DNA of 64,000 nucleotides from Nematocida parisii ERTm1 (lineage: Eukaryota; Microsporidia), in the NCBI RefSeq assembly GCF_000250985.1, contig NW_013524649.1, forward strand, positions 1 to 64,000, written 5' to 3'. The notes beneath the pieces were generated by a model, which was given only the letters and a program-made list of their open reading frames with translations, ran no database searches and was not told where the DNA came from. Made by a program: the position numbers and the translations under genes. Shown here piece by piece: positions 2,393-61,298 of the stretch (position 1 is the first letter of the stretch; the number at the start of each line of letters is the position of its first letter).

Positions 2393-4291
2393 ACTTTACA
2401 AATTGTAAGGCATAAATAATATTTTATGTTAATAAATCATACTTATATTACACAAATTAAACTTTATATATTTTGTTTTAGCTAGATTAATTTAATATAA
2501 GACATTTCTATGTGACTAGAAATAGATATAAGAAGGATTATTGAAATAGTAAGACAAAACGTATAAAGAAGAACGCAGTTTCGGGTTATATTTAGATAAG
2601 ACTTAAGTATACCTCTCTATTTTAAAAATCAGAACATCCTGAAAATAATCAGTCTATTTATACAATAGCAACAACACTAGCATATACATATATTTGTCAT
2701 CCAATTCATGATATTTACATGCATAAATTAGATATTATTATCTATTGATAACAAAGCTTAATATAACCCGAAATCAAATGATCAAATGCATTCATTTACA
2801 TAGTATTTCTATCAATATTATTCTAAGTTTAGTATTTCTTTTGCTTTTCAATAATAAATAATAGCAGTACTACTCATAATTACTTCTAATAGAGCTGTTA
2901 ATAAAAATTTATTCTAGTTCAGCTTATTTATAATAATATTTATGCAACACAGAATATAACTAATATACACATAAAGAATAATAATATTTTATTTATTACT
3001 GAAGATAGAATTAATATATTTAAACAAAGCCAGTTTTAGAGCATGCATAGGGTTTGTTTATGTGCTTGGAATTGATTTTATACTACATAGAATAAAGATA
3101 CATTCGAATTTTTATTATTATTGTCTTATGTAGATTTGCATCTTCATATATCACAGCTCTATGTGACTTTGCATAACCCGAATGACACTCCCACATTTTA
3201 TATGGTTCATTGTATGATAGAAATCAATACTTAGAATAAAAAATAATTTCAGAGACTTCAGGGAGAACTATTAGATTATTCCCTTTTGTGGATTTAGACA
3301 AAAATTAAACAAATATCTTACTGATGCATATGTAAAATTATAGTGATTTCAGCAGAAACGGGGTATTTCACAGAAATAATAAGTTTAAAGAGAACTATTA
3401 GATATAGTATATAATATCTCGTAATTGAAAGGTTTGATAGAATATTCTATGAAATATTTATGTATAATACACTACTAAGTAATATATAAATAGAAAGTAT
3501 TCAAGAATTTATAGTAAACAAGAAATTATTATGCTTAAATAGCACTATCACATAAAATGGCATGTGGTATAATTTCGGGTTATAACCAGAAATGGTTATT
3601 AGAAGTATGTTTTAGTGTATAAGGAAATCCATTAGGAATAAAATCTGAGAACATTCTGTGGTTTTGGGATGTTTTATGGATTTTCCCTTTAAACTTAAAG
3701 ATAGTACTTGTTGAAACATATCATATATTTAACTAGGAATTATTCTGAAATAGCTTTAATTATTTCGTGTCTTTCAGCACAAAGCATATTTTTTTATTAA
3801 TTATTTCATTTAGTGTGGGTGTTTGTTAATATTAAATTTGGGTATAGCCCAAAATGTTAAAAAGAATAAGAAAAGTGATTTGTCTATTCTTTAAAGAAAT
3901 AATAGGCTATTTTATTTTTTAAACACTCCATTTATATACACATTGTGATCTTATTTTAGAGCATTCTGTATATATTTATGACATATACATTTCTTCTAAT
4001 TATTTGATTCATCAGAGAACTGCACACATATTACTTCTTGCTATTAACACATTCTGTATTATTTTAATAGCAATTTTACAATATTCTAATACTCGAAAAT
4101 ATTCCGAAAATTAAATAATTACATGATATATTATGCATAGAATAAGTATGTAGAAAGAACACATGAATATAAGATGCCCTAAACAATCGTAAATATACGG
4201 CTTGCTGCAGTGTGAAGTACTTGTAAATTCTAAAATGAAATATTCTGCTTTTTGCAAGAATAAATAGCAGGAAATTTTTTGGGTTTCTAGC
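2393..4291. other. Intergenic, 1.9 kb, AT-rich, no gene seen
   Basis: No supportable ORF. It contains four exact copies of the dispersed word AACCCGAA/TTCGGGTT (2579, 2765, 3175, 3574) and a segment (about 3085-3235) that resembles non-coding DNA at about 36265-36400. Confidence 0.7.
3085..3235 (+). repeat. Dispersed non-coding repeat, copy 1
   Basis: Shares a collinear series of blocks with 36265-36400: an ACATTC start, TAGATTT, CAGCTCTAT, GGTTCAT and TGATAGAAATCAATA, in the same order and with similar spacing. By eye the two are roughly 70 percent alike. Neither copy lies in an ORF. Possible origins are an old duplicated gene flank or a degenerate mobile element. Confidence 0.55.
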
Positions 4292-4804
4292 ATGCAACAG
4301 ATGACAGAGGAACCATACCACTACTTACAAAAGAAAGTAGAGTCAATTCTAGAGGAGCTCATTTCAGAACTAAACGAGAATGTCTCAGAGTTCAAAGAAA
4401 TTTCCAAGAAGGTCTACGAGGTAGAAGAGGTTATCCTGCACAGCAGAGGAAAATACATAAAAGTAAGCAAAGAGGTTGAAGAGGAGCTAAAAAGACAGAA
4501 TGAAATCGAAAAGGTTTTGGAATACTTTGAGGCCGAGATAGATAAGCTAAAGCAGAAGTTACAGTCAGCAGACAGTTCCAATGGTACAGAGAAGAGGCCA
4601 AACTACTCGTCAATCGGAGACATTTCATCTCTAATTATTGAATTTAACGAGCTTGTCTCTCTCTTAGACTTAGGAATACCAAATAAAATAAATATTCTTC
4701 TGAATAAGAATATCAACTTAATAAACCAAATAGAAGAAGAAACGGACAAAGCCATTTTGAAAGCCAAGAAGAAGCCTTCAGAATCTAACTCTACCAGTAA
4801 ATAA
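4292..4804 (+). CDS. Coiled-coil nucleoporin, Nsp1/Nup62 C-terminal domain type
   Basis: The 170-residue protein is almost entirely helical coiled coil. Residues about 15-92 follow the pattern of the Nsp1/Nup62 C-terminal domain (an EFKE segment, then a heptad region with VLEYFEAEIDKL where the family has LDYVESQQKEVEE-like sequence). Residues about 110-150 contain DISSLIIEFNEL, very close to the family's second helix. In other eukaryotes this domain assembles the central channel trimer with Nup54 and Nup58 (Nup57 and Nup49 in yeast), and it carries an N-terminal FG-repeat region. Here the FG region is absent: the ORF starts directly in the coiled coil, and nothing FG-like lies upstream. The identification rests on pattern memory and is moderate; a generic coiled-coil protein is the alternative. 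Confidence 0.6.
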   Translation: MQQMTEEPYHYLQKKVESILEELISELNENVSEFKEISKKVYEVEEVILHSRGKYIKVSKEVEEELKRQNEIEKVLEYFEAEIDKLKQKLQSADSSNGTEKRPNYSSIGDISSLIIEFNELVSLLDLGIPNKINILLNKNINLINQIEEETDKAILKAKKKPSESNSTSK

Positions 4805-5172
4805 ACAACCCAAGTAGATTCTTTCTTATAAACAGTCGCGCGCAGTGCATTGTGCTCTATTATGATTTTGTAGTTCTACTCCTCTCGCATGCCCATGCAA
4901 TACACCTATACTCTAGAGAAAGCGCATCGCGCATTGCTAAATTGGCTTTTTAATAGTTCATTTTTATTTTTTCTGGAAATGTCTCTATAGGTTATTCTAT
5001 TTTAAAGCGCATATTCGTATTGCTGTGCAATTGGATCGATCTGACATCATTTTGTTATTATTTGTCTATTGTTTTATTGATTGTTTATTTATTTACAGTG
5101 TCATTTATTGGTTTAATGATAAAGATTGAATTAGTAAATATTTTATTCCTTTGTTTATATTTTAACCCCTGT
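4805..5172. other. Intergenic between nucleoporin and Sin3
   Basis: The first 130 bp are unusually GC-rich for this window, with GCGC-containing words, before an AT-rich, T-rich stretch. No gene is recognised. A short structured RNA in the GC-rich part cannot be excluded. The open frame from 5020 to 5172 is treated as leader, not coding. Confidence 0.4.
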
Positions 5173-8766: not shown

Positions 8767-11700
8767 TTAATTGCTATTACTGCTGCTGTAGCTATCACTT
8801 CTATCATTATTGCTGTTATTAGCATGATCATTAGCACTACAAGTTGTTTTATTGTCATCTCTACCGTCACCGATAGGATTATGGTCGCCGCTGCTGCTGC
8901 TGCTGCTGCCGCTGTCAGTGTCAGTGTCAGTGTAAATGTCACTGATATCACGGGAACTATCACTTCTATCATTATTGCTGTTATTAGCACTACAAGTTGT
9001 TTTATTGTCATCTTCAACATCACCGATAGCATTATGGCCATTGCCGCTGTCACTGTAATCGTCACGGCTATTATTGCTTTTATTCTGATTTATATTGATG
9101 CTAGTAATAACAACATCGTGATTACTATTATTATCCTTGCTGTTACCAATACTATTATTACCACAAGGAGTGGGATTGCATTTAATATTATCGTTTTTTT
9201 TACTATCACTACTATCACTACTATCACTACTATCCCTACTATCCCTAATGCAGTAGAAGCAGCTGCAGTTGATTCTACTGTCGTCATTGTCACTGATTTT
9301 ATTAACAATGTTTAAATCATGTTGAATATCATCCTCGCTATTTTTGCTATCATCATCATACTCCTCACACTCCTCACACTCCTCACACTCACTAGTACTA
9401 ACGCTATTACTATTACTATTCCTCCTGCTACTGCAGATAGTACTGCAATAATCAGAATGATCGCTTAAATCACTTAATGAACTAATACTACTGGCAAAAT
9501 AACTACTTGAATCACTATTGTATGTTTGATCAATGTTTGCATTTAAATGGTCTCTTCCGATGGGGTTCTCATTGCTGCAATTGCCACCTATAATATCACC
9601 GTTCCCATCTATATCATCATTGATTTCATCCCAGTCATTGTTAGAATCAAAAATACGCTTCTTCTCATCCTCATCCATGCCATTCCAAATCCAACCTGGA
9701 TTCTCCACATACATGTTCCAAATATTTTGATTTTTATATATTCCATAGCTACATTCTTTAATATTACAAATAATAGCTTGAATATCCTCCTGCATTTTAG
9801 ACAATCTGTCAATGTATTCCGCATTCTTCTCTATATTTTTACTCAGTTTAGTAATTTTTGTTTCTAATAAACTAAGAATAATTTTTAGTGTAGGACAGTT
9901 TGGGGATATATTCTGAATTACTGGCTTTAATTCTTCATTAAGCATGGTACGTATCCATATTTCATATATTTTTTCAATAACATTCTCATACGTACTTATA
10001 TCTTCAAAAGCACGACATAATATATATGTTAAAAAGCTCGATACATTATTAGGGTTAAATTGCAGGGTGTCGGAGTCACTCTTGTTTTTAACTAACTTAT
10101 CATAAATGCGAGTTAATTGCACTACTTCAGTGCCACCAGCAGTAAAGTGCATGGCTAAATCATAAGTATCTCCAGATTTTCTTGAACTTCTGCTTACATT
10201 TGTGCCATTTTCGGATTTCTTTACTAAATTAAGCCAGGAATTACCAAAATTAGACATGCATAGACTTATAAAATAACAAAGACCATCAGTGCTCTTTTTG
10301 TAAATTAAATACTCTATTATGTCGCTAATCACCTGAATTTCATATGAATACTGCCCATTATCTAGGTGGGCAACTGGTTTAATGTGTATTATAGGCCTAT
10401 GCGGTATATTAGACAGTAATCTCTTCTTCTTAATAAATTCCATTGCAATGCACTGAACCGGTAGATAATATACATCAATTGGAAACTTCCCATTTAAATT
10501 ATCCTGATTCGTGATACATGTTGAGCTATTCTCCTTATTACTGAATAAAACTAAAATTTCTATAAATTTTAGTATACGACTGTCCGCAGACTCATTCTTA
10601 TGAATAGCTATAGCAAGCAGTGCACTAATCAAACTTTTATAATTTTTATTTAGAAGCAGTACATACTTAAATAAAACTAGCCCAGATATGTCATTATAAT
10701 ACTCTTCGGCTATAACACTAATATACTTAATCCCATTACTTGGATGTGGACTAAGCCCAAATCTGGATAAATCTGGGAATGAAAATTGGTGTCTGTATAT
10801 CTCGATTAAAAATAATAAATAGTCGTTGAACATTAGCCCCCATAGAGATGCTGCATTAATAAAATTTACTTTCGCCTGGATTTCTATAAAAATATTTTTA
10901 AGCTTTGTGTTTTCAGTAATAATACTGCTGTTTGACACGATCCGCTCATAAGTTATATTCATTGTCTTTACTAGGTCGTATAAGCCCCTTTCATTAATTA
11001 ACACAGAACCTGCCCTTTTCTGTTCTTTCTTTGGTATGAATAATTTCTTGAATATTTTAGTTGCAGTTTCTTTATGCTTTGCTTTGTCCTTAGATACCCC
11101 TTTAATACATTCCATTAGAAGGGCATGTACTTCTTCTATGAATAATTTAATTTCTAGCACAGAGCACATGGTTATGTATACATAATTCTGTATAAGAAAC
11201 CCAGGGGTGTTCATGAATTCTCCTGTTATAAATTCTTCTCTTGTAGTGGGCTCTGTAAATTTAAAGGCCTTCTGTATAACTGATCTGTCTGAATACTCTA
11301 TAAAAAATTCAATTATCCTCCTCTCATTCTCTGACTTATCTGCCTCACTCATATTACAATAACAATTGTACATCATATTGTATGTACTTGAACTATCCAT
11401 ATGCTTACTGTTCCTTTTATGCCCTATATAACTAGCTATGCACCGTATATGAGTATACTTATTATTACTATCTGATAGCATAAATACCATATCATCATAT
11501 TCTGAATCACTCACTTCTATGGGTAAGTATAACCCTTCTGTCATAAGAAATAAGTGCGCTAATGTTCTATAAATATACTTACTGCTTGAACTGGCTATCT
11601 CATCCTCTTTACTTTTACTCTTTGATTTATCCTCTGGGCGTATTAAACTCCAATTAAACAGTGTATATAATACACGATAATATCCTTTCATATACTTATC

Positions 11701-12078
11701 TATCTCACTCTGGTTCTGTGGTATGCCCTGTGTGCTTTCCGTTATATAACACATTCGGGTTATATCATCTTTGGTGTGCATAATTACTTTGTTATCTGTG
11801 TTTAACCATTTCTTATTCGTTATATTATTTGTTGTATCATCTATATACCACCTGGCTACATTTAATGACCCTTCTAAGTTAATTACCACACTATCTTCCG
11901 ATTCTGGCTGGTTCGTAAACTGTAATTCATGGATTTCTTCTATTTCATCGTGGTTGAGCGCGAATATTTTATTTATAAAGCACAGTATAAGTAAAAATAT
12001 TCGTACGCCTGTTATTACTTTATGGTTATTGTATAATATATTATAGACCCATTCTTTATTAATTATTTTTAACTCCAT
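8767..12078 (-). CDS. Large secreted or membrane-anchored lineage-specific protein with acidic repeat tail
   Basis: The first ATG is at 12078; an upstream in-frame TTG at 12096 is not a likely start. This gives about 1103 residues. A hydrophobic segment at about residues 25-42 acts as signal peptide or anchor. Residues about 60-800 are a mixed helical region with no domain I recognise. The last 250 residues are low-complexity, Ser/Asp/Asn-rich and strongly acidic. They contain CEECEECEE, repeated SSD units, and a duplicated block in which DDNKTTCSAN followed by NNSNNDRSDS occurs twice. The tail is built from tandem trinucleotide and 9-mer DNA repeats, which probably change length easily. Two AACCCGAA-type words sit about 60 bp upstream of the start. 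Export to the host or to the spore surface is an inference from composition only. Confidence 0.75.
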   Translation of the reverse strand: MELKIINKEWVYNILYNNHKVITGVRIFLLILCFINKIFALNHDEIEEIHELQFTNQPESEDSVVINLEGSLNVARWYIDDTTNNITNKKWLNTDNKVIMHTKDDITRMCYITESTQGIPQNQSEIDKYMKGYYRVLYTLFNWSLIRPEDKSKSKSKEDEIASSSSKYIYRTLAHLFLMTEGLYLPIEVSDSEYDDMVFMLSDSNNKYTHIRCIASYIGHKRNSKHMDSSSTYNMMYNCYCNMSEADKSENERRIIEFFIEYSDRSVIQKAFKFTEPTTREEFITGEFMNTPGFLIQNYVYITMCSVLEIKLFIEEVHALLMECIKGVSKDKAKHKETATKIFKKLFIPKKEQKRAGSVLINERGLYDLVKTMNITYERIVSNSSIITENTKLKNIFIEIQAKVNFINAASLWGLMFNDYLLFLIEIYRHQFSFPDLSRFGLSPHPSNGIKYISVIAEEYYNDISGLVLFKYVLLLNKNYKSLISALLAIAIHKNESADSRILKFIEILVLFSNKENSSTCITNQDNLNGKFPIDVYYLPVQCIAMEFIKKKRLLSNIPHRPIIHIKPVAHLDNGQYSYEIQVISDIIEYLIYKKSTDGLCYFISLCMSNFGNSWLNLVKKSENGTNVSRSSRKSGDTYDLAMHFTAGGTEVVQLTRIYDKLVKNKSDSDTLQFNPNNVSSFLTYILCRAFEDISTYENVIEKIYEIWIRTMLNEELKPVIQNISPNCPTLKIILSLLETKITKLSKNIEKNAEYIDRLSKMQEDIQAIICNIKECSYGIYKNQNIWNMYVENPGWIWNGMDEDEKKRIFDSNNDWDEINDDIDGNGDIIGGNCSNENPIGRDHLNANIDQTYNSDSSSYFASSISSLSDLSDHSDYCSTICSSRRNSNSNSVSTSECEECEECEEYDDDSKNSEDDIQHDLNIVNKISDNDDSRINCSCFYCIRDSRDSSDSSDSSDSKKNDNIKCNPTPCGNNSIGNSKDNNSNHDVVITSININQNKSNNSRDDYSDSGNGHNAIGDVEDDNKTTCSANNSNNDRSDSSRDISDIYTDTDTDSGSSSSSSGDHNPIGDGRDDNKTTCSANDHANNSNNDRSDSYSSSNSN
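8850..9400 (-). repeat. Intragenic microsatellite/minisatellite tract
   Basis: Several short tandem arrays inside the 3' part of the large secreted gene: GCTGCTGCT near 8890, CTATCACTA units near 9205-9240 and CTCACACTC units near 9360-9390. They encode Ser, Asp and Glu/Cys runs. The plus strand is also open through part of this tract, which is a by-product of the repeats. Confidence 0.7.
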
Positions 12079-12475
12079 GGGTAATAAAAAATGCAAAGAT
12101 TAAATTATTTTTGAAATTATGTGTTATAAATAATGATTTCGGGTTATGTCGGGTTATTAAATATTTTTAATTTATTGCGCGTAATTATTAAAACAATAAG
12201 TATAAAGTTCCAGAACTTTTTACACATAGTGTAGAATATTCTAGACCCTTTAATACTCCCTAAAGTGTCCATAATCCTATAATTTTATTACATAATATAT
12301 ACACATTACTTTTTACACAATACTCACTTAGTCCTAATACTTTCTACACTATACTTACTTAGTCTTAGACCCAATTCATCTCTTCTGATACATTGTCTAA
12401 TAAATTACTTCTTCTGATACATTGTATAATAAATCTTGATTATAAATATGCACTAATTATAAATTTTTGTATCAA
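12079..12475. other. Divergent intergenic region upstream of the large secreted gene and Pmp3
   Basis: Very AT-rich, about 400 bp, divergent promoters. It holds TTCGGGTT at 12138 and a second GTCGGGTTAT a few bases on. No other feature seen. Confidence 0.5.
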
Positions 12476-12661: not shown

Positions 12662-12666
12662 CTGAA

Positions 12667-13290: not shown

Positions 13291-13291
13291 T

Positions 13292-14400: not shown

Positions 14401-14447
14401 GAAATTTCCCCCCTATGTCTTATATATTCTGACTCTAAGGGGGGACT

Positions 14448-17533: not shown

Positions 17534-17769
17534 ACTAATGCATAAATAAAAACTATAAATATGAAATAACCCGAAATTGTATTGTCTTCTACTACGCCAT
17601 ATTCAGCATAACCCGAATATAACCCGAAATTGGGATATCTATAGTAAAATACGCCTAAATACCTAAATATCACATAAAGTACTCTATTTAAGATATTTAT
17701 TGCCTGATTTACAAGTATCCATAAATATTCTATTCTTTTGTATAAAAATAATTTTAAATATTTGGATAA

Positions 17770-19155
17770 ATGATAAATATAGAAGAGAAATTGAGAGAAA
17801 CCATTAATATGTCAATGGATGAGATTAGTAGATATTTTAACTTGCCAATGTTTAAGTCATTTACACTTATAAATATGGTACTGGATATATACAGACAGGA
17901 ATATGTATTACATGATAAATATCATGCATTTAAGAATTTGAAATATACGACATTTCGGGTTATATTGTCTCAGTACATAGAAAAAATTCAAATATGCGAT
18001 ATAGAGGTAATTATAGGAGAAGTCAACAGAGCAATTAGAACCACTGAGGCAATTTTAGATGCACTTGAGGCTGTAGCTAATGAATTGCCATGTATAAATA
18101 GCAAAGAGGCTTTTTATAATTTAATGGGCAATAATCATTTGTTTATGCTGTCAAAGTATGAAACAGTTTTGGCTTATATTATAGATGACTTAATTAATGC
18201 ACTTAAATCACATAATCCACCAGTACCAGCAAAACTGAATATTTCTGATGCGGATGCCAAATTATTTGCACATGCTAAAGATAAGAAAATCACTCGAATT
18301 GAAAGAGTCATAGAAATACTAACACAGCACGGAGGAGGTCTTTCATACAGAATTAATTATAATGAAATTGTTTCAAATTTAGATAAGTTAGATATCTCAC
18401 CTGATGATATTTACTCACTCCAGTTGTTTTTAAGTGCAAAGCATAAAAACCGATTTAAAGTAATCCGTGACATGCAAGAGTCTGTCTTTGTTAAAGATGA
18501 AAAGAAAAGTATCACGCACTCTTCATTTTCTCAAATATTCACTGGATTCTTTTTTTTCCTTTTAGATTACTCTCCTGTCTTTGATGAATTCTACCCTTAC
18601 AGAAATACAATTGAAGAGTGGCTGGTTAATCTTAAGAGATGTAGTAAGAATATTTCTAAAGAATACATGAAACAACATATCTTAGACCTTAGTGATCTAA
18701 GTGATGACAATATTCTGATATTGTTAAATAACGTAATGCCTGAATATATAAAACCTATTCAAGCAGATTTGAATACTATTCAAATTACTAATATTAAGAC
18801 CTCAATTGCTAAAGATAAATGTCTTAATAGATCCTATATACTAAACCGACCCAATATATTTTTATTATGGAAACCAAATAAAAATATACTAAGCCCGAAA
18901 TTAAAAAAAGTTAAAGATGATGTAGTTAGTACGGTTGTAAAAACAATCAAAAGTGTTAAGCTTTGGGCATTCTTAATTGCAGTAGCACTTTCTAGTTTTT
19001 TGGTCTGGGGAATATCCTATTATCAAGAAGACTTTAATCGGCTAATTCTTAAAATATCCAATAATATTAGTATTATGTCTGAAGATAAAACTGACCCATT
19101 GGTTTTATACCCTCGATTCATATTGCAGAGATTCAAATATCTTCTTAAATTATAG
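17770..19155 (+). CDS. Lineage-specific protein with a C-terminal transmembrane segment
   Basis: 461 residues, no signal peptide at the N-terminus, mainly helical and rich in Ile, Asn and Lys. A single strong hydrophobic segment at about residues 402-420 (WAFLIAVALSSFLVWGI) is followed by about 40 residues with basic ends. That suggests a membrane protein with most of its mass on one side. No family is recognised. One copy of TTCGGGTT lies inside the coding sequence (17954), while several copies lie in the upstream intergenic region and just beyond the stop. It has the composition of the neighbouring orphan genes rather than of the housekeeping blocks. Confidence 0.65.
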   Translation: MINIEEKLRETINMSMDEISRYFNLPMFKSFTLINMVLDIYRQEYVLHDKYHAFKNLKYTTFRVILSQYIEKIQICDIEVIIGEVNRAIRTTEAILDALEAVANELPCINSKEAFYNLMGNNHLFMLSKYETVLAYIIDDLINALKSHNPPVPAKLNISDADAKLFAHAKDKKITRIERVIEILTQHGGGLSYRINYNEIVSNLDKLDISPDDIYSLQLFLSAKHKNRFKVIRDMQESVFVKDEKKSITHSSFSQIFTGFFFFLLDYSPVFDEFYPYRNTIEEWLVNLKRCSKNISKEYMKQHILDLSDLSDDNILILLNNVMPEYIKPIQADLNTIQITNIKTSIAKDKCLNRSYILNRPNIFLLWKPNKNILSPKLKKVKDDVVSTVVKTIKSVKLWAFLIAVALSSFLVWGISYYQEDFNRLILKISNNISIMSEDKTDPLVLYPRFILQRFKYLLKL

Positions 19156-21231
19156 AAGCCCTAAAATTATCTATAAAATTAAGTTATATTCTGCTATACA
19201 TATTGTTTTTTATACTTAATAACCCGAATAACCCGAATTTACATAAATACCCAGAAACTTCCTAGAATTCACGTCTATTAAAGTACACTACATACTATAA
19301 CTATTCAGTTTATTTCTTTATACATTACATAGTAAAATATTCATAAATTATAAAAAGTACTTGATGTATCTATAGTTCTATTTAAAGGTATATATCTTAT
19401 AAATATGAAAGGCAAATCATTGTTTAAAATATTCTGTGTCTAAATTTCAATAATACAGAATGGCTTATTGCATTTTAATTATAGTATGAAATTCAAATCC
19501 TATCCATTAATTATTGCTCTAAACCTTTTAATATCTCTCTATTCAGTATAATTCTCTAATTATTGTTTTAGACCCTTCTAGCCCGCCTTTTATATTTCTT
19601 CTTTCATTTTAATTACATTTCATAATTGCCCTTATGTACAAATTTACATGGAAATGGACTCTGGTCTTATTGGTCTATATATTTTTCAAAGGTATAAATA
19701 GAAGAGAGAAATACGAAAATATGAAGAATTCGTCGGTGGTAGTGTGAATCTCATAGTTTTCCTCTATACACAGCTTGTCTGTATATAGCCCCAGTAGCTT
19801 AAGTTCATGCACTCATTCACTGCCTAAATACTAGAATAACTAATCATGAACACATAAACGGTCTTTCTGATTATAGGTATACTCTCTGCTGTGTAATATG
19901 CAATAAACATACTACTACAGCTGAATAAAGCAGTGAATAAGTCCCACCATTTAATCTCCTCTAAATGGACTGTCTCTGTTGTGTATATTAATTAACAAAC
20001 CAAACCAATAAAGATTTGTACATTTAACTCTCTCTCATCCTTTGCATCTTTTCCACTTTTTCTTCTCTTTTTGTGAGTCTGTTTCTCCCACATACTTTTA
20101 ATTCCTAATTGGCTATCTAATATATAGCACTTATGCCTAAGATATTCGTGTACTTTGCTTTTGTCTCCTTCTCCATATACCAAGTTTCTAAAAATACCAG
20201 AAAACCGAGCCAGCTGCCTTTAAGTGCAAACTCGGTCTCTTCATACGCCCTGAATACAGGTGGAGTAGTCTATCCTATAAACACTGCACATTAGTTCGTG
20301 TAACTTGTCCTTCTAATTCAATCAGTAAAGTCTTTAATACAAGATAAATTAGACACAGAATAATATCCGCCCTGTTCTGCCATCCTCAATACTGCTTCTC
20401 GGCATTCATTTCACATCTCTTCGGTCTCTCTACCCATAAGAAACTGAACTCATGGAATATAAAACTAGTTTTAGTTCTTTAACCATACTTCATTCTATTT
20501 CACCAGGAATAGCCATTGGCACAGTCACATGGAAAATATAAATATACAACCCACATATTCACATTTACAGAAATAGTCTCCTTTATTACACCCTCTTTTG
20601 TTTATATTATATTCTTGTTATATGTTATTCTTTCTGCTGTATAATATGCATATATTCTTTATTTTCTACTATTTTTAAAATTTAAATTGTACTCTAATAA
20701 ATATTCTAATAAGAAAATAAATACATTTTATATTTTAATAGGAATATTCAGTATAATCTGAAATCTGTCTACACACATAAATATAATAAAATATGAATTT
20801 ATTCCATTCTTATTAGAACAACAAATATTACTAAACTTATGATGACACGGTCACAAAGACATAAACCATCAAGGAAATCTGTCCGTGTGTCAGCTTGTGC
20901 AATGATCCTGCCAAAACAAAGGCCAAAATTGCAGATTAGTAGATCAAATTAGGACTATTTAACCTGCATCCTATAATTTATGGGGAGATTCAGAGATGCA
21001 TCGATGGATAACCCAAACACAAAGTCTAGCACAGATGTGCCATTAATACTCTAAGCACGTGCTGGATTGGACTGCTTCATAAATACAATAAAGATCTCTC
21101 TTATTTCATTTTCTTCTTTATCTGGACTGCGTGGCAGGGCGGTATTCCTCATGAGTACGTCAATGCCAATTGAATATTTCTGATAGAATATCTCTAATTT
21201 TATTATTTATGCCATACAAATAATTTATCTT
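19156..21231. other. 2.1-kb non-coding region with GC-richer islands and a possible gene remnant
   Basis: No intact gene. Two AACCCGAA copies at 19221 and 19230. On the minus strand, 20400 down to 19992 gives several protein-like stretches interrupted by stops and frame changes, the longest being a 63-codon Lys-rich ORF (19992-20183). This may be a decayed gene. A 6-bp stem (ACCGAG/CTCGGT) with a loop of about 28 nt lies at about 20203-20242. The stretch 20840-21090 is listed separately as a possible structured RNA. Confidence 0.4.
20843..21090. ncRNA. Possible structured non-coding RNA (strand uncertain)
   Basis: About 250 bp clearly richer in G and C than the surrounding intergenic DNA, with no ORF. 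A hairpin TGACACGG...CCGTGTGTCA (20843-20892) has an 8-bp stem with a small bulge. A second local pair, GCACGTGC, lies near 21054. The loop of the first hairpin contains GGAAATCTGTCC, and the 3' part has GATTGGACTGC. These loosely recall the two ends of the RNase P/MRP core, but I cannot confirm it. An RNA gene is one explanation; remnant coding DNA is another. Confidence 0.25.
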
Positions 21232-24166: not shown

Positions 24167-24738
24167 GACATAGTAGCTCCTCAAAGAAAAATATATACAC
24201 AAAATCCTATTTGTTCCTTACCATGTTTTAATAAACTAGTATAAATAAATTATATCCAGTAAAATGATATAACCCGAATTTAAATCCCATTCTCTGTATA
24301 TTATACATTTAGTACGTAATACACTGCCTGTTTGCACTGTATATTTTAGTTATTTCCTGGGTTTATTATAAAATATACTTTAATCCAAAGACATGTTAAT
24401 TCTTAGTCATTATGAATACATTCTGTCTCAAATAAGGCCATTTTAAACCTTTGCACTGTATACATAAAAATATATAATTTATTCTTGGGTGTAAGTAAAT
24501 AGAGATATTCTTGTATTACACCAAATAAAACGTGTACACATAAAAATATATTATTATACTTTTAGTAGTCATCTCCTATGCGACTCTCATAATAAAATAA
24601 TTAAAATTTAGAACTTCATGCGATAAACATGATATTTTAAGAGTAATTTAGGAATAATTATGTATTATTGGGTTTATTTGCTTATGTACTGCGTGCTGAC
24701 TAGTTCTTTAACAGGGCACTTCTTTGGTTCATTTTGTT
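24167..24738. other. Intergenic, convergent gene ends
   Basis: AT-rich, one AACCCGAA at 24271. Nothing else seen. Confidence 0.6.
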
Positions 24739-27866: not shown

Positions 27867-28316
27867 ATGCGCGGTGTGCTGAAAGTCCATAATATAACGT
27901 TCAGACAGATCAAACGAAATCTGATAGAAATGGCCTTTGAGCGATACGGAAAGATAAAAAAGATAACCATGCCCACGAGAAGGGACAATTATGCGTTAGT
28001 AGAGTATGCCACAGAGGAAGAGGCAGTTAAAGCAAAAGAGGCATTAGACGGGACTACTCTATGCAGCATACACAGAAGAACAAAAGCAACCAAGAACTCT
28101 CTAAGAGAGTTCGTGTGGAACATAAGCATTCTAACAGAAGATTTCCTGTGGGAGAAGGATGCATCAGAGAATACCACAGAAATAGAGAGAGAGATTGTAA
28201 AACAGAAGAAAAAGAATCTTTTCTATGTTGAGGCAGTGGGTGAAAAAATAACTCACACAGAAAATGTAAGGCAGAGGCCTATTATACAGGAAATAGAAAA
28301 ATCCAAAGATCAATAA
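27867..28316 (+). CDS. Single-RRM RNA-binding protein (Y14/RBM8-like possibility)
   Basis: 149 residues. The RRM at about 3-75 has an RNP2-like VLKVHNI strand, the FERYGKIKKITMP link and an RNP1-like DNYALVEYATEEEA block, then AKEALDG. The phrase ALVEY with a short preceding loop recalls the exon-junction protein Y14, but RNP1 lacks the usual aromatic pair and the C-terminus (about 75 charged residues with a KKKN patch) is unlike Y14. A generic RRM protein of the splicing or mRNP machinery is safer. Last gene of the tight Nop10-Spt7-RRM run. Confidence 0.75.
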   Translation: MRGVLKVHNITFRQIKRNLIEMAFERYGKIKKITMPTRRDNYALVEYATEEEAVKAKEALDGTTLCSIHRRTKATKNSLREFVWNISILTEDFLWEKDASENTTEIEREIVKQKKKNLFYVEAVGEKITHTENVRQRPIIQEIEKSKDQ

Positions 28317-29164
28317 ATACATAAATATCAGCTAAACAAGGCCTAACCCGAATGCACAGAGAACAATCAAGCAGAAGTCTCTTGTTAATAATTATTATAA
28401 GGAAATACTTTAAATATTTCAGTTATTTTTCATATTAATAAATTTACTATAAAAACCGTTAAACCAAAAATATTCAATAACCAGAATGTACACTATAAAA
28501 CACACCAGTACACTTACATATATCTTATTCCATAAATATTCTTAATATTCTACTTATTAATGAGTATAAAGGCATTAACCCTGAAAATACCATAAAATTA
28601 TCATTATTATGTTTATAATAAACCCGTACTTTTCATTTTTGATTAAAATTATAAATGAACACCTTTTGATTTTGAATATTTATTAATCATGAATAAATCA
28701 GTGAATATATACCATATACATAAGAATACGCACTAATACATCATAATAAACGTATAATAAGACTAATTTCAACGTATCCCAATTATACACCAGAAATTCA
28801 ATGTGTTTATTACAGTAAATAAGATAATCCATAATATAAAAGTATAAATTCCCATGTAAATATAAGATATAACCAGATATAATCCAGATATAACGTATAC
28901 CCCGATATAACCCGAATACATAAATATTTTAATTATAGTTTTATATACATATAATACATAATTGTATCCAATAGAGTATAGCCATATACACATATAATTT
29001 TAAATATAAATATAATAATGGATATAACCCGATATAACCCGAAATACTTGTTTGTTCTTATTTTATACCCACTCCCACTGGATTTTCTTGGATTTCTTGA
29101 ATTTCCTGTGGATTTATACTTTTCTTTTATTTTCTATTTATTTTCTAAATTTTACTCCCCTGTA
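28317..29164. other. Intergenic upstream of uL16, AACCCGAA-rich
   Basis: Extremely AT-rich. It holds AACCCGAA at 28345, 28909 and 29036 plus several one-mismatch copies near 28870-29030 (ATAACCAGATATAATCC..., ATAACCCGATAT). An in-frame upstream ATG at 29018 would add 49 hydrophobic residues to uL16 and is not used. Confidence 0.6.
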
Positions 29165-29818
29165 ATGGGAAGAAGACCCGGAAGATGCTACAGATACATA
29201 AAGAACAAGCCATACCCAAAATCAAGATTCTGCCGTGGAGTCCCAGACTCAAAAGTATCAAAATATGATACTGGTAAGAGAAAGGCAACTGTCCTTGAAC
29301 TGCCAATATGCACGAATTTAGTGTCCCTTGAGAGAGAGCAAATATCAGCAGAAGCCTTAGAGGCATCCAGAATTGCACTGAACAAGTACTTGTCCACCCA
29401 TTTGGAGAAGGACGCATTCCACTTTAGATTGAAGGTGCACACACACCACGTCGTAAGAATTAATAAAATGTTGAGCTGTGCTGGTGCCGATAGATTACAG
29501 ACGGGAATGAGAGGGTCCTTTGGAAAGCCAAATGGAAGAACTGCCAGAGTCAACATTGGGCAGGTCCTTATTTCCGTAAGGAGTAAAGAAGGCACTGAGG
29601 AGAAGGTAAGAGAAGGTCTTAGAAGAGCAATGCACAAGTTCGCTGGTAAGCAGGAGATAGTCGTCACTGACAAGTACGGATTCACTCCATACACCACTGA
29701 AGAGTTCAACAGGCTCAAGGAGGAAGGATCACTCCTCCCCATGGGAATTGGTGCAATGGAACTTAAGAAGAAGGGGCCCCTCATGGAGTACATCAGAAAG
29801 GCATCGATGGTGCTATAA
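29165..29818 (+). CDS. RPL10: Ribosomal protein uL16 (RPL10)
   Basis: 217 residues from the ATG at 29165, starting [11 protein letters not shown], the invariant eukaryotic uL16 N-terminus. It continues with [16 protein letters not shown], then [38 protein letters not shown] in the middle and the [12 protein letters not shown] strand. All universal blocks are present, including the P-site loop region. uL16 is the last large-subunit protein to join the 60S in the cytoplasm and helps build the peptidyl-transferase environment. The ORF extends upstream to 29018, but that leader is AT-rich and not conserved. Confidence 0.97.
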
Positions 29819-30076
29819 ATAAAGCTGCTCGGATTATTTATTTTGGGTTATTTCGGGTTATTACTGGCTGGTGCGGATGCAGTAGAATTTATTATGCAAT
29901 GTGTTAAAAGTAATGGGTGTGCGCATTAGAGTGGGAAGTGGGATATCCCGCTGTAATGCAGTGCGCCATGCGTGATTTTATGATTGGCAGTGTGTTTGGC
30001 ACGTAATCCACGGAAGAAGTGCGCTGTGAGTCCACGGGTGTAGTATTACAGCACAGTGCCCGGAGAATTTTACAGT

Positions 30077-38386: not shown

Positions 38387-38751
38387 AATAAAAAGAAATA
38401 AATTAATATAAATATAAGAAGCTCCATGTATGAAATAATGTAAATAACGAATCATTTATATAAGAATAGTTATAGAAATGGGATAGTAGCCATAAATTTC
38501 AACTTATTTATAAGGAATACGGCCCTATTGCCAAAAATATTCCCATAATTTTGTACAATTAATGGTTTAGATTTAAAATTCGGGTTATATCGGGTTTTTA
38601 CAATATAAATTATATTTAAGACTCTGTAATTTTATATTTTGCAGTCTTTGGCTATTTATGGTTGAATATTTTTATGTTGAGACTTTCAATATAATAATTC
38701 AAAATTATTAAGATTTAACTAAATGCACCTAAAAATTAAACTATAGTTTTA

Positions 38752-40674: not shown

Positions 40675-42162
40675 AATACCCACCCCCTGCAGTATATTTA
40701 TACATATATATTTTTAAATATCACTATTCCACAATATGATGTAATCCATTTCTAATTATTTCTGATAAACAATTCTATTATAATAATTCTTTAAAACTAT
40801 TCTTAAAATAAAGCCAGAAGATATGTAATACGTGCCGAAACCAACAATGTTCTAAGAATAGAAAATGTGTAGCTTAAATGTTAGAACTGTTCTTTTTATT
40901 GCTTTAAATTATTGCTAATTTGAACTAATACAATGCACTGTGTAATATTATACTTATAAAAAATTTGATTAATTAGAATCTCCAAATATCATAGAAGTTT
41001 CTGGAACATCTCTCATCAGAAAAAGATTACTCTTCTTCTAAAATAGATTTGAATAAATTCTTTAAGAATTAAAATAATATAAAAAGTGAATTTAAATGAA
41101 AACATGTGCAATATTCAACGTAATACACGAATAAAATCATAAAATAGACGCAAGAACTTACGAATAGACATAGAGCACAGATTTAAGAATATTTATAAAC
41201 ACAAATTTAAAGATAATTTACTTAAAGATAATCTGCTTAGTAATATATATAGTATCTAGCCTATTTAATGTATTATATGTTTAGAATTATTAATTTGTTA
41301 AATATATGCTTTTATTTCCTATATGTTTCCTATATATGTTATTTAAATACTAATCTTATTATAATATAGAAATTATTATAATTATTGTGCTATAAATCAA
41401 AATAAACTAATTAAGTATTTTCTATGTATAATATAATACTGTTTATGCACTGTGCATTATTTATATTTGAATATTCTTTTCTTGTAGTAGCCATATGAAT
41501 AGTTTTTGTACTTTCTTATTATTATTAAACATAATTTTTGTAAATATATTTTTAGAAACTCTTCACAGTGTATAATCATTTATATACGGATATATTATTT
41601 ATAATAATAAGAAAATAACTAAAAACAAGCATAAACAGTGTAAGCACCACAAAGTATACAGCAAGAAATATAGCACACTATACATACAATTTATTACATA
41701 GAAATACATTATATAACCCGAAAATAACAGCACATATAACATAAAATTACTAAATATAAGGCCAAGAAATTATATAAGATACAAATATATGTACATAGAT
41801 ATATAAAAATAAATGCAAAAGGCGTTTAAACAAAATATTGTGAGTTTAGGTTGTTTGTAGTTATATTTTATACAGTATTGGTCATAACAACCAGAAATAT
41901 TGCCAAAAGCACATATAGGATTACATAGCCCGAAGATATGGCATAAGAAAATAATAAATACACAATATATGTTATAAGAGAGCTGTTCATATAAAAAACC
42001 AGAAATGTTCCAAAACAATTAAAGGCTCTGAAGAGGTATTTCATTATTTGCATAGTGAATTGTTCTATTCATTGAATTTTATTGTAGATAAAGAAAAATA
42101 TACAGAGTAGGCAGTAGAAGTACAAATAAAATTATTTTTAGAGCTATGCTCTGAAATACTGC
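40675..42162. other. Intergenic, 1.5 kb, mostly AT-rich
   Basis: One AACCCGAA at 41715. No gene apart from the doubtful small ORF at 41868-42053. Confidence 0.6.
41868..42053 (-). CDS. Possible small two-span membrane protein
   Basis: 61 residues with two hydrophobic stretches (about 12-22 with a weak charge, and 24-58). It starts 110 bp from the divergent BET bromodomain gene. Small membrane subunits of this size (signal peptidase, dolichol or sphingolipid enzymes) are typical in such genomes, but I recognise no family. A second overlapping ORF on the same strand (41770-42018) makes a chance ORF possible. Confidence 0.3.
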   Translation of the reverse strand: MQIMKYLFRAFNCFGTFLVFYMNSSLITYIVYLLFSYAISSGYVILYVLLAIFLVVMTNTV

Positions 42163-48539: not shown

Positions 48540-48563
48540 GAAAGTGAAATTTTAAAAAGGATT

Positions 48564-50024: not shown

Positions 50025-50249
50025 CTATCCCAATATCAACCAATATATAATGAATAGAATATTTATAACAATAAGTGGGATAAAGCTAAGAGTTTTGATT
50101 GTTCTTATAAGTTCAGATAACTGTCGCACCACTGCATTCTCACTTTTTCGGGTTATCCCCAGATTGTCTAGAAATCTTTCCTCATTCAGTATGCACACAC
50201 TATTTCCAAGCATGGTAAATGTATACAGAATAGCTCCTAAACCAAACAT
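50025..50249 (-). CDS. YOS1: Yos1/IER3IP1 family ER-Golgi membrane protein
   Basis: 74 residues from the ATG at 50249, which starts MFGLGAILY, as in Yos1 (MLFGLGRLFY). The conserved EERFLDNLGI follows, then a short hydrophilic linker, ELIRTIKTL and the second transmembrane helix with FIPLIVINILFIIY, close to RIPLIGINILVIVY. Yos1 acts with Yip1 and Yif1 in COPII vesicle transport. An in-frame ATG at 50306 adds 19 hydrophobic residues and is not used. It holds one TTCGGGTT copy inside the coding region. Confidence 0.9.
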   Translation of the reverse strand: MFGLGAILYTFTMLGNSVCILNEERFLDNLGITRKSENAVVRQLSELIRTIKTLSFIPLIVINILFIIYWLILG

Positions 50250-52530: not shown

Positions 52531-52620
52531 ACTTCTTCGAAAAAATAAAAATATTTATTCATTCTGAGTATTTCACGTATCTGCTGCAGCGTTATTTATT
52601 TTTATTATTTTTCATACGGA
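52531..52620. promoter_or_regulatory. 90-bp bidirectional promoter region (VMA6 / PheRS beta)
   Basis: The start codons of the two genes face away from each other, 90 bp apart. A-rich on one side and T-rich on the other. No specific element identified. Confidence 0.5.
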
Positions 52621-54279: not shown

Positions 54280-54774
54280 ACAATAAATCATACAATTAGT
54301 ACTTTTCATATCTACGCCTGCTTTTTAATAAGCTAGCCTATTATAATAAAGGTCTTTCTTTATAATTATATTTCATGCTATTCTCAACTCTATTTTGTTT
54401 ACTGGTAATATAACCCGAATTTTGGTAGTATGGGGCTTTCTCTGATCCTTTCTGTCTACTTCTGCGAATAGAATGTTCATTGAATTTTAGGCTATAAGTA
54501 ATTTACAATGCTTTATATTGGGATGTATACATTTAAACTAGAAAGCATAAATAGTTTTATTTTTAGTAGGTAGGGGCAATAAGAATCTGATAGTATATGC
54601 TTAAGTTGTTGGAATTGCCTAAACGATGAAAGAATACAATAATACCGCAAAATTAGACCAAATATGTTGTTTATTACAAAGAATACTCTTGAATATTTCA
54701 GGTTTTATGCACTAGTGCTCAAATTACATATTAATATGCACATCTTCTCTAGCTAAATACGTCTCATTATGATA
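54280..54774. other. Intergenic, convergent gene ends
   Basis: AACCCGAA at 54412. No gene seen. Confidence 0.6.
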
Positions 54775-55845: not shown

Positions 55846-55852
55846 AAAAAAT

Positions 55853-56530: not shown

Positions 56531-56593
56531 CTTTTGTAAATATGTATATTTGAATTTTTATTGGTAAATTAAGACACCCGCCAATTGGTTCAT

Positions 56594-57526: not shown

Positions 57527-58963
57527 TTATTTTGTTTGAATATTTTTTCATAATATGTAATTAATTAATTTAAACCCATCATACAATAATTAAATTATCT
57601 TCTAATTATAGCTATGCAGTGATGCATTTATAAAAACTTCTTTGTTCTAGGATTTATTTCAGTGCATAGGAGGATTTGTTGTTTTACCCTGTGGTTAAAG
57701 CTATTTCTATTGTATTTTGGGCTATTGAAGTGTGGTAGTGCATATTAATCTTTAAATAACCCTAGTGCCACATAACAAATTACATGTATCCGTCTACAAC
57801 TATTAATATTCTATTCAATCAGAGTCTATTACCTAGTGTCTATTGTATAACCAGAAATAACCCGAATATATCAGAATAGCCTCATTTAAGTGCTTTTTGT
57901 TTGTCTAGCGTATGAATAGGCAATAATGCGGGTGTAATTATTTGAGGTGTTAAATATATTTGATATTTGAAAAAGGAAGAATCTGTGTGCAGTATAATAC
58001 TATTAAGAATCAAGTTCGGGTTATATACTAGCACATTATATTATTTGGGTTATATACTAGAAAATGAGATATTTGTAAATTTATGTCTGTATATGCATCT
58101 ATTATTTTACTATTTACAAGAAATATAAAAATAGAAAGTGTTTATAATTTAATTCAATCTCTGAATGGGTTTATTTATTATCTAATAATATAAAATATTG
58201 TAAACATTGTGCTAATACTCTAAAAAGGAACATTCATATCTCTGATGATTATTCTCACATAATGGCATGTATACTAGAATATAATTAATAAAGTATGAGT
58301 AATAATAAAGTATAAAATAAAGGAAAGAAACAAAAAAACAAGAGAAAATATAATGGAGAGAAAATCAATCGATTTCTGCGCCCAACAACCATAAAAAAAT
58401 CACAATGTGCAAGTGATTTAAATATAAATATGGATAATTAAAGATAGTTTATATAGTTAATGGTATATAAAGCAGCATACTGATGTTATAAAATATGAAA
58501 TTGTTACTGAAAGAAAATAGCACAAATTAAACTGTATATAAGTATTTTAATATGCTTAAAAGCAAACCTCATGCATATATATGCCTTGAAATACAGCTCA
58601 AATTAAGATAGCTAGTTATATTGGTGGCTACACGACAAACAACAACAGAGAAGCGAACCATAGTTGATTTGAAAGGCATGCTTCTGCATATGCATGCTAT
58701 TTATGAAATAATCCCCTTTAAATTGTATATACCACCACAGCTTCTTTCGGGATATTTTTATTCATATTTTTGTCTAGAATACTCTTTCATATAAAGTTCT
58801 GTGGATTTTGGCAATTTAGGTATATATTAGATAATTCTGCATATAATTGATTATTTACAACAGAGAATTGTCTATATTTGTTAAATTTTAGCAGTTTGTA
58901 AAGATTGAAGATTTAGGAGAAAACTAAAGTATGAAATATTCTTTGAGTGTCCCCTGGATTTTA
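57527..58963. other. Intergenic, 1.4 kb, divergent promoters
   Basis: AACCCGAA at 57859 and TTCGGGTT at 58015, plus a TTTGGGTTATAT near 58046. Otherwise AT-rich with no ORF. Confidence 0.6.
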
Positions 58964-60652
58964 ATGAAGTTTAGTAAAACTTTGAAAGAAAAGCAAGTGC
59001 AAGAATGGAGAGCTAAGTATTTGAATTATGAAGACCTAAAAGAAAAGATTGATATGACAGAGGATGCGTTCATTAGTGAGATTAATAAAGAAGTAGAGAA
59101 AGTAGAGGCCTTCTATAAAATATTGGAAAGAGGAATATTACGGGGCTTAGCTGATTTGCTAGAATTATTTCCAGAGGAGGACTTTCCATATGCATATGAA
59201 ATGGTATATGAGAACTGGAAATTGGCCATGGCCAAGTCAGTGAGTGTTCGGCATAAAAGAAGCCGGCAGGAAAGGCTACCCAAAAAATCAATTCACAAAG
59301 TTCGGGAGAACAAGGTTTTAGAATTTTATGTTGCTCTGAATAAAATTGTGCAGTATAAGCGTATGAATATAACAGGGTTCAGAAAAATATTAAAGAAGTA
59401 TGACAAGAAAAATGGAACAAGCATACAGGGCCGAATGATGGAGGAAATACGCACGAGATCCACATTTGTACAGCAGACTGTAGAGGAAATCATTGAATTT
59501 ACAAGGTACCTGCATAAGGAAATAACGCCAAATAGGCATAGGGATAAGGCAAAAAGACTTGTAGCAGATTTAACAGAAGAAGACGCGCAGGGAGATGGAA
59601 AGAGCTTTGCTGCAGGCGCGATGATGAGTGCTGGCCTATTTATGATGGGGCTCTCTCTGCAGAATAATACAAATATCATGTACTATGGAGCTCTTTATAC
59701 ATTTGACATACTTTTCCTTTCTTTAGGAGTGCTGTTTTATGTGTGCCGTAAAAACCTGGTCAACTACAGTCTAATTCTTGAGCTAAACCTTAAGCCAAAG
59801 TTTAAAATATCCAGCTACTTTCTTATGTGCACCATTGTATTTTTAATGCATTCGGTTGCAGGGTACTTAGATATACCAAGCTGGCTGATATATATTTTAA
59901 CAGTGTGCATCATTTGCATGCCAATAGATCACTTTTATAAGGAAATTCGTATGTACCTATTACAGACGGTTTCGGAGGTGCTGGCATGCAGTGTTCTAGG
60001 AAAAGTTCACTTCAAGCACTTTTTTATTGCAGACTATTTTATAAGCATTCGCTCTGCGCTGCTTCTGTCAATCACCATGGGCCTGCATGAGGCCCCAGGG
60101 CCCAAGATTACATGCTGTATTTTGTATATTCCTATAATGATTCGTGTATTCCAGTGCATTAGAAGACACATTGAGAAGACGAACCGGCAGCCATTTCCTC
60201 ACTTGTATAATACATTAAAATATATGATCTCATTTACCAGTGATACTTTACTGATCTTATCTGATACTATAAATATCTGGGTGTGCGTGGGTGCATTACT
60301 AATTTCCAACGGCTTTGGAATGTTCTGGGATGTGTATGTTGACTGGATGCTGTGGAGTAGGCCAAAGGTATACCACAGAGAAGTGTATATTTTTGCCTGC
60401 CTGTTTAATCTAATTGTGCGAATTTTGGCAGTTTCAAGCCCTCTGGTAAGCCTGGCAATGCAAGATTACCAGTTTGAAGCCAAACTCAAGATTAAATTAG
60501 TAATGTGCTTCCTAGAGATGAGCAGAAGAATCATATGGGGAATAGTGCGTATAGAAGTGGAGCACTTAAATAACTGCAATAGACTAAAAGCGATTAGTGG
60601 GCCACTGAATGATCTTTTCTATCTTGAGGACGATGGCCACATTGAAATATAA
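58964..60652 (+). CDS. SPX-EXS protein (XPR1/Syg1 family phosphate exporter)
   Basis: 562 residues from the ATG at 58964, which gives MKFSKTLKEKQVQEWRAKYLNYEDLKEKI, the canonical SPX start; the in-frame ATG at 58931 would add 11 residues ahead of it. The SPX domain lies at about 1-175, and its Lys-rich helices bind inositol pyrophosphates. Membrane helices at about 215-370 and an EXS domain (about 380-545, WDVYVDWMLW and a RIEVEHLNN end) complete the layout. XPR1 exports phosphate. Whether it imports or exports phosphate here is unknown. Confidence 0.93.
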   Translation: MKFSKTLKEKQVQEWRAKYLNYEDLKEKIDMTEDAFISEINKEVEKVEAFYKILERGILRGLADLLELFPEEDFPYAYEMVYENWKLAMAKSVSVRHKRSRQERLPKKSIHKVRENKVLEFYVALNKIVQYKRMNITGFRKILKKYDKKNGTSIQGRMMEEIRTRSTFVQQTVEEIIEFTRYLHKEITPNRHRDKAKRLVADLTEEDAQGDGKSFAAGAMMSAGLFMMGLSLQNNTNIMYYGALYTFDILFLSLGVLFYVCRKNLVNYSLILELNLKPKFKISSYFLMCTIVFLMHSVAGYLDIPSWLIYILTVCIICMPIDHFYKEIRMYLLQTVSEVLACSVLGKVHFKHFFIADYFISIRSALLLSITMGLHEAPGPKITCCILYIPIMIRVFQCIRRHIEKTNRQPFPHLYNTLKYMISFTSDTLLILSDTINIWVCVGALLISNGFGMFWDVYVDWMLWSRPKVYHREVYIFACLFNLIVRILAVSSPLVSLAMQDYQFEAKLKIKLVMCFLEMSRRIIWGIVRIEVEHLNNCNRLKAISGPLNDLFYLEDDGHIEI

Positions 60653-61298
60653 CCCAAATTATCCACAACCGGCAGTATACCTTTAAATACCCACTAAACC
60701 CGAATAGCGCAGGTAGTGCATTATTATTATGATAAAACAAAGGTATATTCTGCTTCCCGTATATATTCTGGGCAGGCCTATCCAGTATAAAGAACTGTGA
60801 AAGTATTAAATCTAGTAATTTCGGGCTATTTAAGAATAACCCGAATAGATGAACACTCTACATATTCTAAAATACACAGCCTCTTAACAGAGTTAAATAT
60901 AAGAAAATTAATAATTCTACTATCAGAGATAAGCTCAGTAGATAAATACTGATGTAGTGACTATGTCTAGCATGTATAATAAATGCCACTAATAATTTTA
61001 ATTGGCATTTATTATACTATTCTAGCTATTAATAAATAAAGAATACCATATATATAAATATTACAATTTTTGTAAAATAGCCCGAATAACCCGAATTTAT
61101 TTATACTTTAAAGAGCGTATAGATAACCCAAAATAATTTCAGCTAACTTTTGCAATTTTAAAACTAAAAAGAAAAGAGAGATAGCAGCGCCAAAGCAATG
61201 CATCCGTATGAAATTAGAGTATAACTGGCATCAAAGCGAAATAATAGCATAAATCTAATATTGTCTATATTTATTTACTAGATATGGCATGGCAGCAC
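60653..61298. other. Intergenic, convergent gene ends, AACCCGAA cluster
   Basis: AACCCGAA at 60697, 60838 and 61088, plus near-matches (TTCGGGCTATTT at about 60820, TAGCCCGAAT at about 61079). Confidence 0.65.

Follow-up and report, generated by a model that had tools for sequence, protein, structure and literature searches.

What is the short DNA word that recurs in both orientations between the genes at one end of a microsporidian contig, and what might read it? The question arises in Nematocida parisii ERTm1, at positions 1 to 64,000 of contig NW_013524649.1 (C4:1-64000; this whole stretch of 64,000 nucleotides is referred to as the window), which belongs to an assembly of 3.98 Mb in 11 contigs. 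An earlier note on the window had proposed a general factor-binding or chromatin-boundary site, a proposal that is partly supported, its factor-binding half standing as the best reading. With a probability that can be put at roughly 0.5, the word TAACCCGAA would be the recognition unit of one putative general DNA-binding factor, most likely NEPAR06_1596, at several hundred mostly intergenic places. A factor site is preferred because the unit is 9 bp long, its variants are selective, its pairing is polar and strictly limited to 9-11 bp, its flanks are unshared, and it shows no clear preference for promoter gaps.

Extent and Abundance of the Word

The window contains 26 exact copies of AACCCGAA/TTCGGGTT, in agreement with the approximately 25 that had been counted by eye; all 23 positions listed at that time are correct within 2 bp, and the copies missing from that list are those at 11754, 17954, and 50147. 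Base composition had been said to predict about one copy, and 60 dinucleotide shuffles of the window average 0.60 copies, the highest count being 3. Since T precedes 25 of the 26 copies and AT precedes 24, the word is taken as ATAACCCGAA.

Pattern searches of the whole genome show that TAACCCGAA is present genome-wide, well beyond the span in which it was first noticed, with a frequency far above expectation: there are 821 copies versus 25 of the reversed word, and for ATAACCCGAAT the corresponding figures are 353 and 4. The region C4:1-264000 was read as one piece (8 kb of the 264 kb being N), together with small stretches elsewhere, and in this region TAACCCGAA is the top-scoring 9-mer under an order-2 model, with 53 copies observed versus 0.7 expected. 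In the gaps between its genes, TAGCCCGAA and TAACCCAAA are the frequent one-base variants of ATAACCCGAA; intergenic variants with TAG number 10 versus 0.29 expected and those with CCCA 13 versus 0.77, and a change of the middle C is found in none of the intergenic one-base variants. A free iterative weight matrix slid into coding words and was discarded.

Head-to-Tail Pairs and a Polar Composite

Genome-wide, 42 exact pairs have both copies in one orientation and a gap of 0-30 between them. Direct pairs at 9, 10, and 11 bp (gaps of 0, 1, and 2) account for 34 of them (17, 11, and 6, respectively) versus approximately 1.0 expected, and gaps of 3-30 hold the other 8 versus 9.1 expected, while inverted pairs occur 0 times in one order and once in the other versus 10.1 expected overall, all of these expectations treating every copy as intergenic. 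The earlier statement that copies often lie in pairs 9-12 bp apart is, thus, upheld for 9, 10, and 11 bp and fails for 12 bp, for which the 42 pairs include no example. Most copies lie outside exact pairs (34 pairs among 821 copies), and in six of the six 11-bp pairs the linker is TA.

A second kind of pair involves the telomere box TAACCCTAA, which occurs 86 times genome-wide versus 47 for the reversed word, a mild excess. A search of 40 bp on either side of all 86 boxes for the unit [TC][AG][AG]CCCGA in the same orientation finds it 9-11 bp upstream of 36 boxes (30 at 10 bp, 5 at 9 bp, and 1 at 11 bp), or of 39 if any first base is allowed, and 9-11 bp downstream of none of the 86. The excess of TAACCCTAA (about 39) is, therefore, roughly equal to the number of boxes in such composites. 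The identical 19-mer TAACCCGATATAACCCTAA makes up 16 of the 36 composites, and at one locus three units stand in a row. Where the looser core A[AG]CCCNA is paired at 9-11 bp in C4:1-264000, all 9 first units have G, and the second units are split into 7 with G and 2 with A. The rule drawn from these pairs would be that of a strong first unit followed by a more tolerant second one. This polar composite is a new finding beyond the earlier note. Since TAACCCTAA is paired in one order, slippage or a mobile repeat would not be expected to yield the composite, as a cooperative one-way row of proteins would.

Placement Relative to Genes and Along Contigs

Genes were called from open reading frames (ORFs) and hexamer scores, and these calls, which are our own and not an annotation, classify 67% of the window and 74% of C4:1-264000 as coding. 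The claim that nearly all copies are intergenic agrees with the 22 of 26 window copies found between called genes; the remaining four are those at 11754, 17954, 29036, and 50147, and two of the calls are doubtful, namely the gene at 29018, in which the copy is 21 bp from an unproven ATG, and the ORF at 50025, of 75 aa. In C4:1-264000, 46 of the 53 copies of TAACCCGAA lie in the 26% of the sequence that is called intergenic. The nearest gene end is a start for 23 of these 46 copies and a stop for the other 23, close to the 22 and 24 expected, as had been described when copies in both orientations were placed near 5′ and 3′ gene ends.

Of the 37 divergent gaps, 9 carry a strict copy; for the 88 tandem and the 36 convergent gaps the numbers are 18 and 8, respectively. 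Copies in tandem gaps are oriented 15 sense and 7 antisense to the genes (p 0.13, not significant), 2 of the 46 copies fall within 50 bp of a start versus 4.9 expected, and no link of sites to weakly coding genes is seen (p 0.65 and 0.67). The density along C4:1-264000 is uneven, the first 144 kb accounting for 38 sites and the remaining 120 kb for 8 (p 0.0009 with gap length allowed for, at a division picked after the data had been seen). On C1, ATAACCCGAAT occurs 12, 14, 12, 13, 2, 4, 6, 4, and 6 times per 100-kb bin and 11 times in the last 55 kb, these being raw counts, not per gap length, among the matches listed in order of place, which reach past the end of C1. The chromatin-boundary role, the other half of the earlier proposal, is possible in view of the sites in 8/36 convergent gaps and the uneven density on contigs.

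Flanks, Duplicated Segments, and Telomere-Like Sequences

With the cores masked, BLAST found 14 matching pairs among the flanks of the 46 intergenic copies and the same number among 46 random intergenic stretches. The long flank matches are, by our reading, neighboring sites with overlapping windows, and the remainder measure 15-18 bp; the flanks of the 36 composites gave only five matches, of 13-25 bp. A mobile repeat spreading the word is excluded at the tested resolution by these unrelated flanks.

The starts of C3 and C4 form a recent duplication with 96-98% identity (window 200-3060 and C3:208-2806, part of it in L023), in which a stretch of approximately 260 bp, holding one motif copy, is present in the C4 copy only. 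The duplicate segments differ at the motif, which accounts for 2 of 2 differences in a comparison of 185 bp and 4 of 16 in another of 309 bp; both comparisons display clustered substitutions with length unchanged, and the duplication has clustered differences elsewhere as well. Turnover of the sites is apparently rapid and proceeds by substitution.

Telomere repeats of Microsporidia include TTAGGG, TTAGG, and TTAG according to excerpts of PMC13174016. Neither (TTAGGG)3 nor (TTNGGG)3 has a match in the assembly, in a DNA search that skips simple repeats and is, hence, a weak test, and no telomere array was found in 14 contig-end stretches, 3 of which are N throughout.

A Candidate Binding Protein

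The search for a binder covered the Myb and TRF families. Ten stretches of the genome, L034 among them, carry Myb domains, and they belong to six or seven genes. By sequence, the proteins are a c-Myb-like R2R3 protein, a c-Myb/SNAPC4-like protein with three repeats, a SWIRM-SANT protein, a protein of 580 aa that matches Myb weakly, and P0001; a further protein, matching Myb_DNA-bind_7, is presumably Bdp1-like. P0001, encoded at C8:145078-146115, matches NEPAR06_1596 of Nematocida parisii with 100% identity. It has 345 aa and a single C-terminal Myb domain (Pfam PF00249, residues 287-330, 26.8 bits for a cut-off of 24.4), and fish TRF Myb domains are among the best matches of this domain to solved structures (E 0.05-0.19). 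The telobox signature in helix 3 is VDxKDKWRN, and P0001 reads EQIIDKYKN at this position. The convergent gap of 408 bp located 3′ of its gene holds 5 strict copies, further variants, and 2 of the 86 TAACCCTAA boxes of the genome; no gap tabulated in C4:1-264000 holds more than 4 strict copies. The Myb-type gene regions were chosen for encoding Myb domains, not for their sites. NEPAR06_1596 may, on this evidence, be regarded as the best candidate binder and as a weak lead.

Proposed Mechanism and Known Systems

In the mechanism proposed here, a strong unit (..CCCGA) would be able to stand alone or would occupy the 5′-most place in a head-to-tail row spaced at 9-11 bp, mostly 10 bp in the composite. 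Such a spacing could bring protein domains onto the same face of the helix, where they would aid each other, and the 3′ unit might be weaker, in the form of CCCGAA, CCCTAA, or CCCAAA. NEPAR06_1596, as a putative TRF/Tbf1-type protein, would be the likeliest binder, with a preferred word that may have moved by one base, from TTAGGGTTA to TTCGGGTTA. By keeping nucleosomes away, the factor could separate tightly packed neighbor genes at their 5′ and 3′ ends, and it would be general rather than devoted to one promoter set. A tentative and rather doubtful extension of this mechanism is that a telomere-type Myb protein changed its word from TTAGGGTTA to TTCGGGTTA and spread genome-wide as a polar cooperative system marking gene ends; the old telomere box would then be retained chiefly in the second position of the composite and beside the gene of the factor itself.

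General regulatory factors of the Reb1, Tbf1, and Abf1 type are characterized by a defined word that is dispersed between genes in hundreds of copies, and such a word is what the genome contains. Reb1 is a dispersed Myb-type general factor that acts at 5′ and 3′ gene ends and recognizes TTACCCG, from which TAACCCG differs by one base. Unlike in that system, no Reb1-like protein appears among the Myb proteins found, and the protein with three Myb repeats matches c-Myb and SNAPC4 best. Tbf1 of S. cerevisiae is described in the excerpted texts of PMC7952879 and PMC6410037 as a TRF-like factor that acts away from telomere ends, at subtelomeres and as a transcription factor, excludes nucleosomes, and has an insulating function. 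By analogy, it would be the closest functional model, and the factor may work like Tbf1 or Reb1, in function rather than necessarily as a member of the same family. The likeness to the Tbf1/TRF sites of fungi (telobox, TTAGGG/AACCCTAA) lies in a word one base from TTAGGGTTA, in dispersed non-telomeric sites, and in a candidate binder with a single C-terminal Myb. In contrast to those systems, the word is TTCGGGTTA and not TTAGGGTTA, an excess of the telomere box is seen here only in the 3′ half of the composite, no tandem 6-bp telomere arrays were found by a search of the assembly that skips simple repeats, and no TRFH domain was detected by a profile that was likewise silent in controls.

An internal telomere-like element is also used away from telomeres by S. 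pombe Teb1, the Tay1 homologue, which binds histone promoters via a HisBox with two telomere repeats, as stated in the excerpt of PMC4839565. However, the HisBox repeats are 6 bp apart and lie in promoters, whereas here the spacing is mostly 9-11 bp and convergent gaps are also occupied; moreover, Tay1 has two Mybs (PMC7952879) and the present candidate has one.

Points Against the Factor and Alternative Explanations

Several observations weigh against a general factor of this kind and against NEPAR06_1596 as its identity. Coding sequences of C4:1-264000 hold 7 copies versus 0.77 expected from synonymous shuffles, an excess that was unforeseen by the earlier note; 4 of the 5 on the sense strand read Ile-Thr-Arg, and the fifth, which belongs to the pair at 29025-29043 as its second unit, is in the Asn-Pro frame. 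Of the 34 exact pairs, 18 were inspected: 4 of the 18 are enclosed in long open frames, one of which is partly N, and 4 of the 18 (L045, L049, L057, and L058) provide, with the TAA of their first copy, the stop codon for a frame upstream. The upstream frames of L049 and L058 look like real gene ends, and the four pairs taken as sense-coding start with Ile-Thr-Arg. Copies in coding frames and at stop codons are not predicted by a purely intergenic regulatory site. Divergent gaps are denser in strict sites (15 sites in 11.8 kb, or 1.27 per kb, versus 0.58 per kb in both tandem and convergent gaps), and, therefore, some promoter role is possible. As regards polarity, the sole TAACCCTAA box that breaks the order, with a CCCGAA unit 6 bp downstream, lies beside the candidate factor gene, and the 53 strict copies of TAACCCGAA show no clear order, their partners at 9-11 bp lying upstream in 5 cases and downstream in 3, which is expected if both units are strong.

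The identity of the binder meets further difficulties. Triosephosphate isomerase matches another part of P0001 with an E of 0.095 in the same structure search, and the TRF likeness is, therefore, at noise level. The TRFH domain (PF08558) has no match in the genome, though its profile was silent in controls too; the whole protein and its Myb part retrieve only P0001 itself from a large protein database, in a search that required shared 5-residue words; and the fold predicted from the single sequence is a poor model (mean pLDDT 44.5). Three of the six Myb-type regions checked for sites are without any, and the gap upstream of the SWIRM-SANT (Swi3-like) gene (L030 1-516 and 2300) packs 5 strict copies and 2 variants into 516 bp, which places it among the densest seen. 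Since only the Myb and TRF families were searched, a protein of another class could bind.

A rival that we consider unlikely would make the word an ordinary promoter site of a transcription factor, for instance the c-Myb-like R2R3 protein (C2:35976-36728) or a factor of another class, with the 3′ copies as a by-product. The highest density in divergent gaps would suit it, as would the TAAC with which the word starts and the sites upstream of the c-Myb-like gene, where one strict copy is accompanied by two variants, 430-530 bp from the start. However, convergent and divergent gaps are occupied alike (8/36 and 9/37), starts and stops are equally near, the vicinity of starts (≤50 bp) is depleted, and the best solved relative of the R2R3 protein is by far c-Myb, whose site, YAACKG, misfits TAACCCG. 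It seems rather unlikely as well that the copies are a mutational product without any factor, that is, telomere- or microsatellite-like sequence generated by slippage or templated repair and selected out of genes. Such an origin would accommodate the coding excess (7 vs. 0.77), the several exact pairs in open frames or at stop codons, the variation of density along contigs, a word one base from TTAGGGTTA, and the motif being a differing place in two recent duplicate segments, though other clustered differences exist there. It is opposed by the single order of the TAACCCTAA pairs (36 upstream versus 0 downstream), the sharp end of the exact pairs at 11 bp, the differences between duplicates, which are substitutions with no change in length, and the absence of any (TTNGGG)3 match in the assembly. 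Moreover, the linker base is unlike either outer neighbor in 5 of 9 inspected 10-bp pairs, and these are, by our reading, therefore not simple tandem duplications.

The other explanations have much lower probabilities. A replication origin or chromosome-maintenance element bound by the origin recognition complex (ORC) or similar would fit the mostly intergenic position, the AT-rich surroundings, the lack of significant orientation bias, and the larger number of copies near the ends of C1; nevertheless, with one strict copy in every 4.8 kb the sites are closely packed for origins, we know of no origin word of this type, and this explanation is very improbable. A recently spread mobile repeat bearing the word could account for hundreds of dispersed copies, and it is hardly credible with flanks no more alike than random intergenic stretches. 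Virtually negligible, too, is the probability of a CCC-like core-promoter signal, which is known in several microsporidia from the excerpted text of PMC2803860 and resembles the word in its CCC core and in belonging to the same phylum. It differs in position and orientation, the signal being located, in that account, directly upstream of the start codon, whereas the word occurs in both orientations and also at 3′ ends, and is depleted within 50 bp of starts.

Sites in the Window and Other Repeated Sequences

The window is compact and AT-rich, and its genes include those for Sin3, Nsp1, a bromodomain protein, an SPX/EXS protein, and diphthamide synthesis, all of which suits a microsporidian. 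One long divergent gap (2580..3582) carries four single copies, TTCGGGTTA at 2580 and 3574 on the minus strand and TAACCCGAA at 2764 and 3174 on the plus strand. The called coding sequence 8767-12078 contains a copy on the minus strand that reads Ile-Thr-Arg (11754..11762), and about 60 bp before the start of this gene lies a head-to-tail pair with 10 bp spacing, TAACCCGACATAACCCGAA (12138..12156, minus strand). A divergent gap holds, on the plus strand, a single copy at 17567 and an exact pair at 17609-17628 with 11 bp spacing (17567..17628). Gene 17770-19155 has an antisense copy within its called coding sequence (17954..17962, minus strand) and, 65 bp past its stop, an exact pair with 9 bp spacing (19220..19237, plus strand).

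Single copies on the plus strand are located in a convergent gap at 24270..24278 and, 28 bp past the stop of gene 27867-28316, at 28344..28352; the strict single copy at 28908..28916, also on the plus strand, has a degenerate unit, TACCCCGAT, 10 bp upstream. Three composite pairs are present: TAACCCGATATAACCCGAA, with 10 bp spacing, at a doubtful predicted start (29025..29043, plus strand); TAACCCGAAATAACCCAAA, past the stop of gene 29018-29818 (29842..29860, minus strand); and AAACCCGATATAACCCGAA, with 10 bp spacing (38579..38597, minus strand). Further single copies occupy a divergent gap at 41714..41722 and a convergent one at 54411..54419, both on the plus strand, and the doubtful 75-aa ORF encloses a copy at 50147..50155 on the minus strand. 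Two copies in opposite orientation, with starts 157 bp apart, share a divergent gap (57858..58023), and the convergent gap between the SPX/EXS gene and the diphthamide-synthesis gene contains a cluster (60696..61095) composed of variants at 60696 and 60820 (minus strand), a strict copy at 60837, and the pair TAGCCCGAATAACCCGAA at 61078-61095, with 9 bp spacing.

Other sequences are repeated as well. After the motif words, the next most over-represented intergenic 10-mers of C4:1-264000 are TTATTACACA (24 vs. 1.5) and ACATTGTGTA (13 vs. 0.4). In the same region, AAGTACTTG occurs 18 times versus 2.6 expected (7-fold), with 16 of the 18 in called coding sequence, which suggests a different signal or a protein repeat. 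A stretch of approximately 50 bp at window 2400-2460, by the ATG at 2392, has at least about 30 relatives with 80-97% identity on many contigs. Its matches in C4:1-264000 number 16, itself included; a predicted start lies no more than 10 bp from 2 of them and far away from most, so that the stretch looks like a dispersed short repeat.

Implications for Compact Microsporidian Genomes

No description of the word turned up in the library searched, whether under Nematocida motifs or under the word itself. Few regulatory signals are known in the compact genomes of microsporidia, and those described, as far as the excerpt of PMC2803860 extends, are short core-promoter words. A genome-wide site with a unit, a spacing, and an order would provide a handle on how neighboring genes are separated in compact genomes. 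If the binder is indeed TRF-like, the system would constitute a natural case of a telomere factor shifted to genome-wide duty by a one-base change in specificity.

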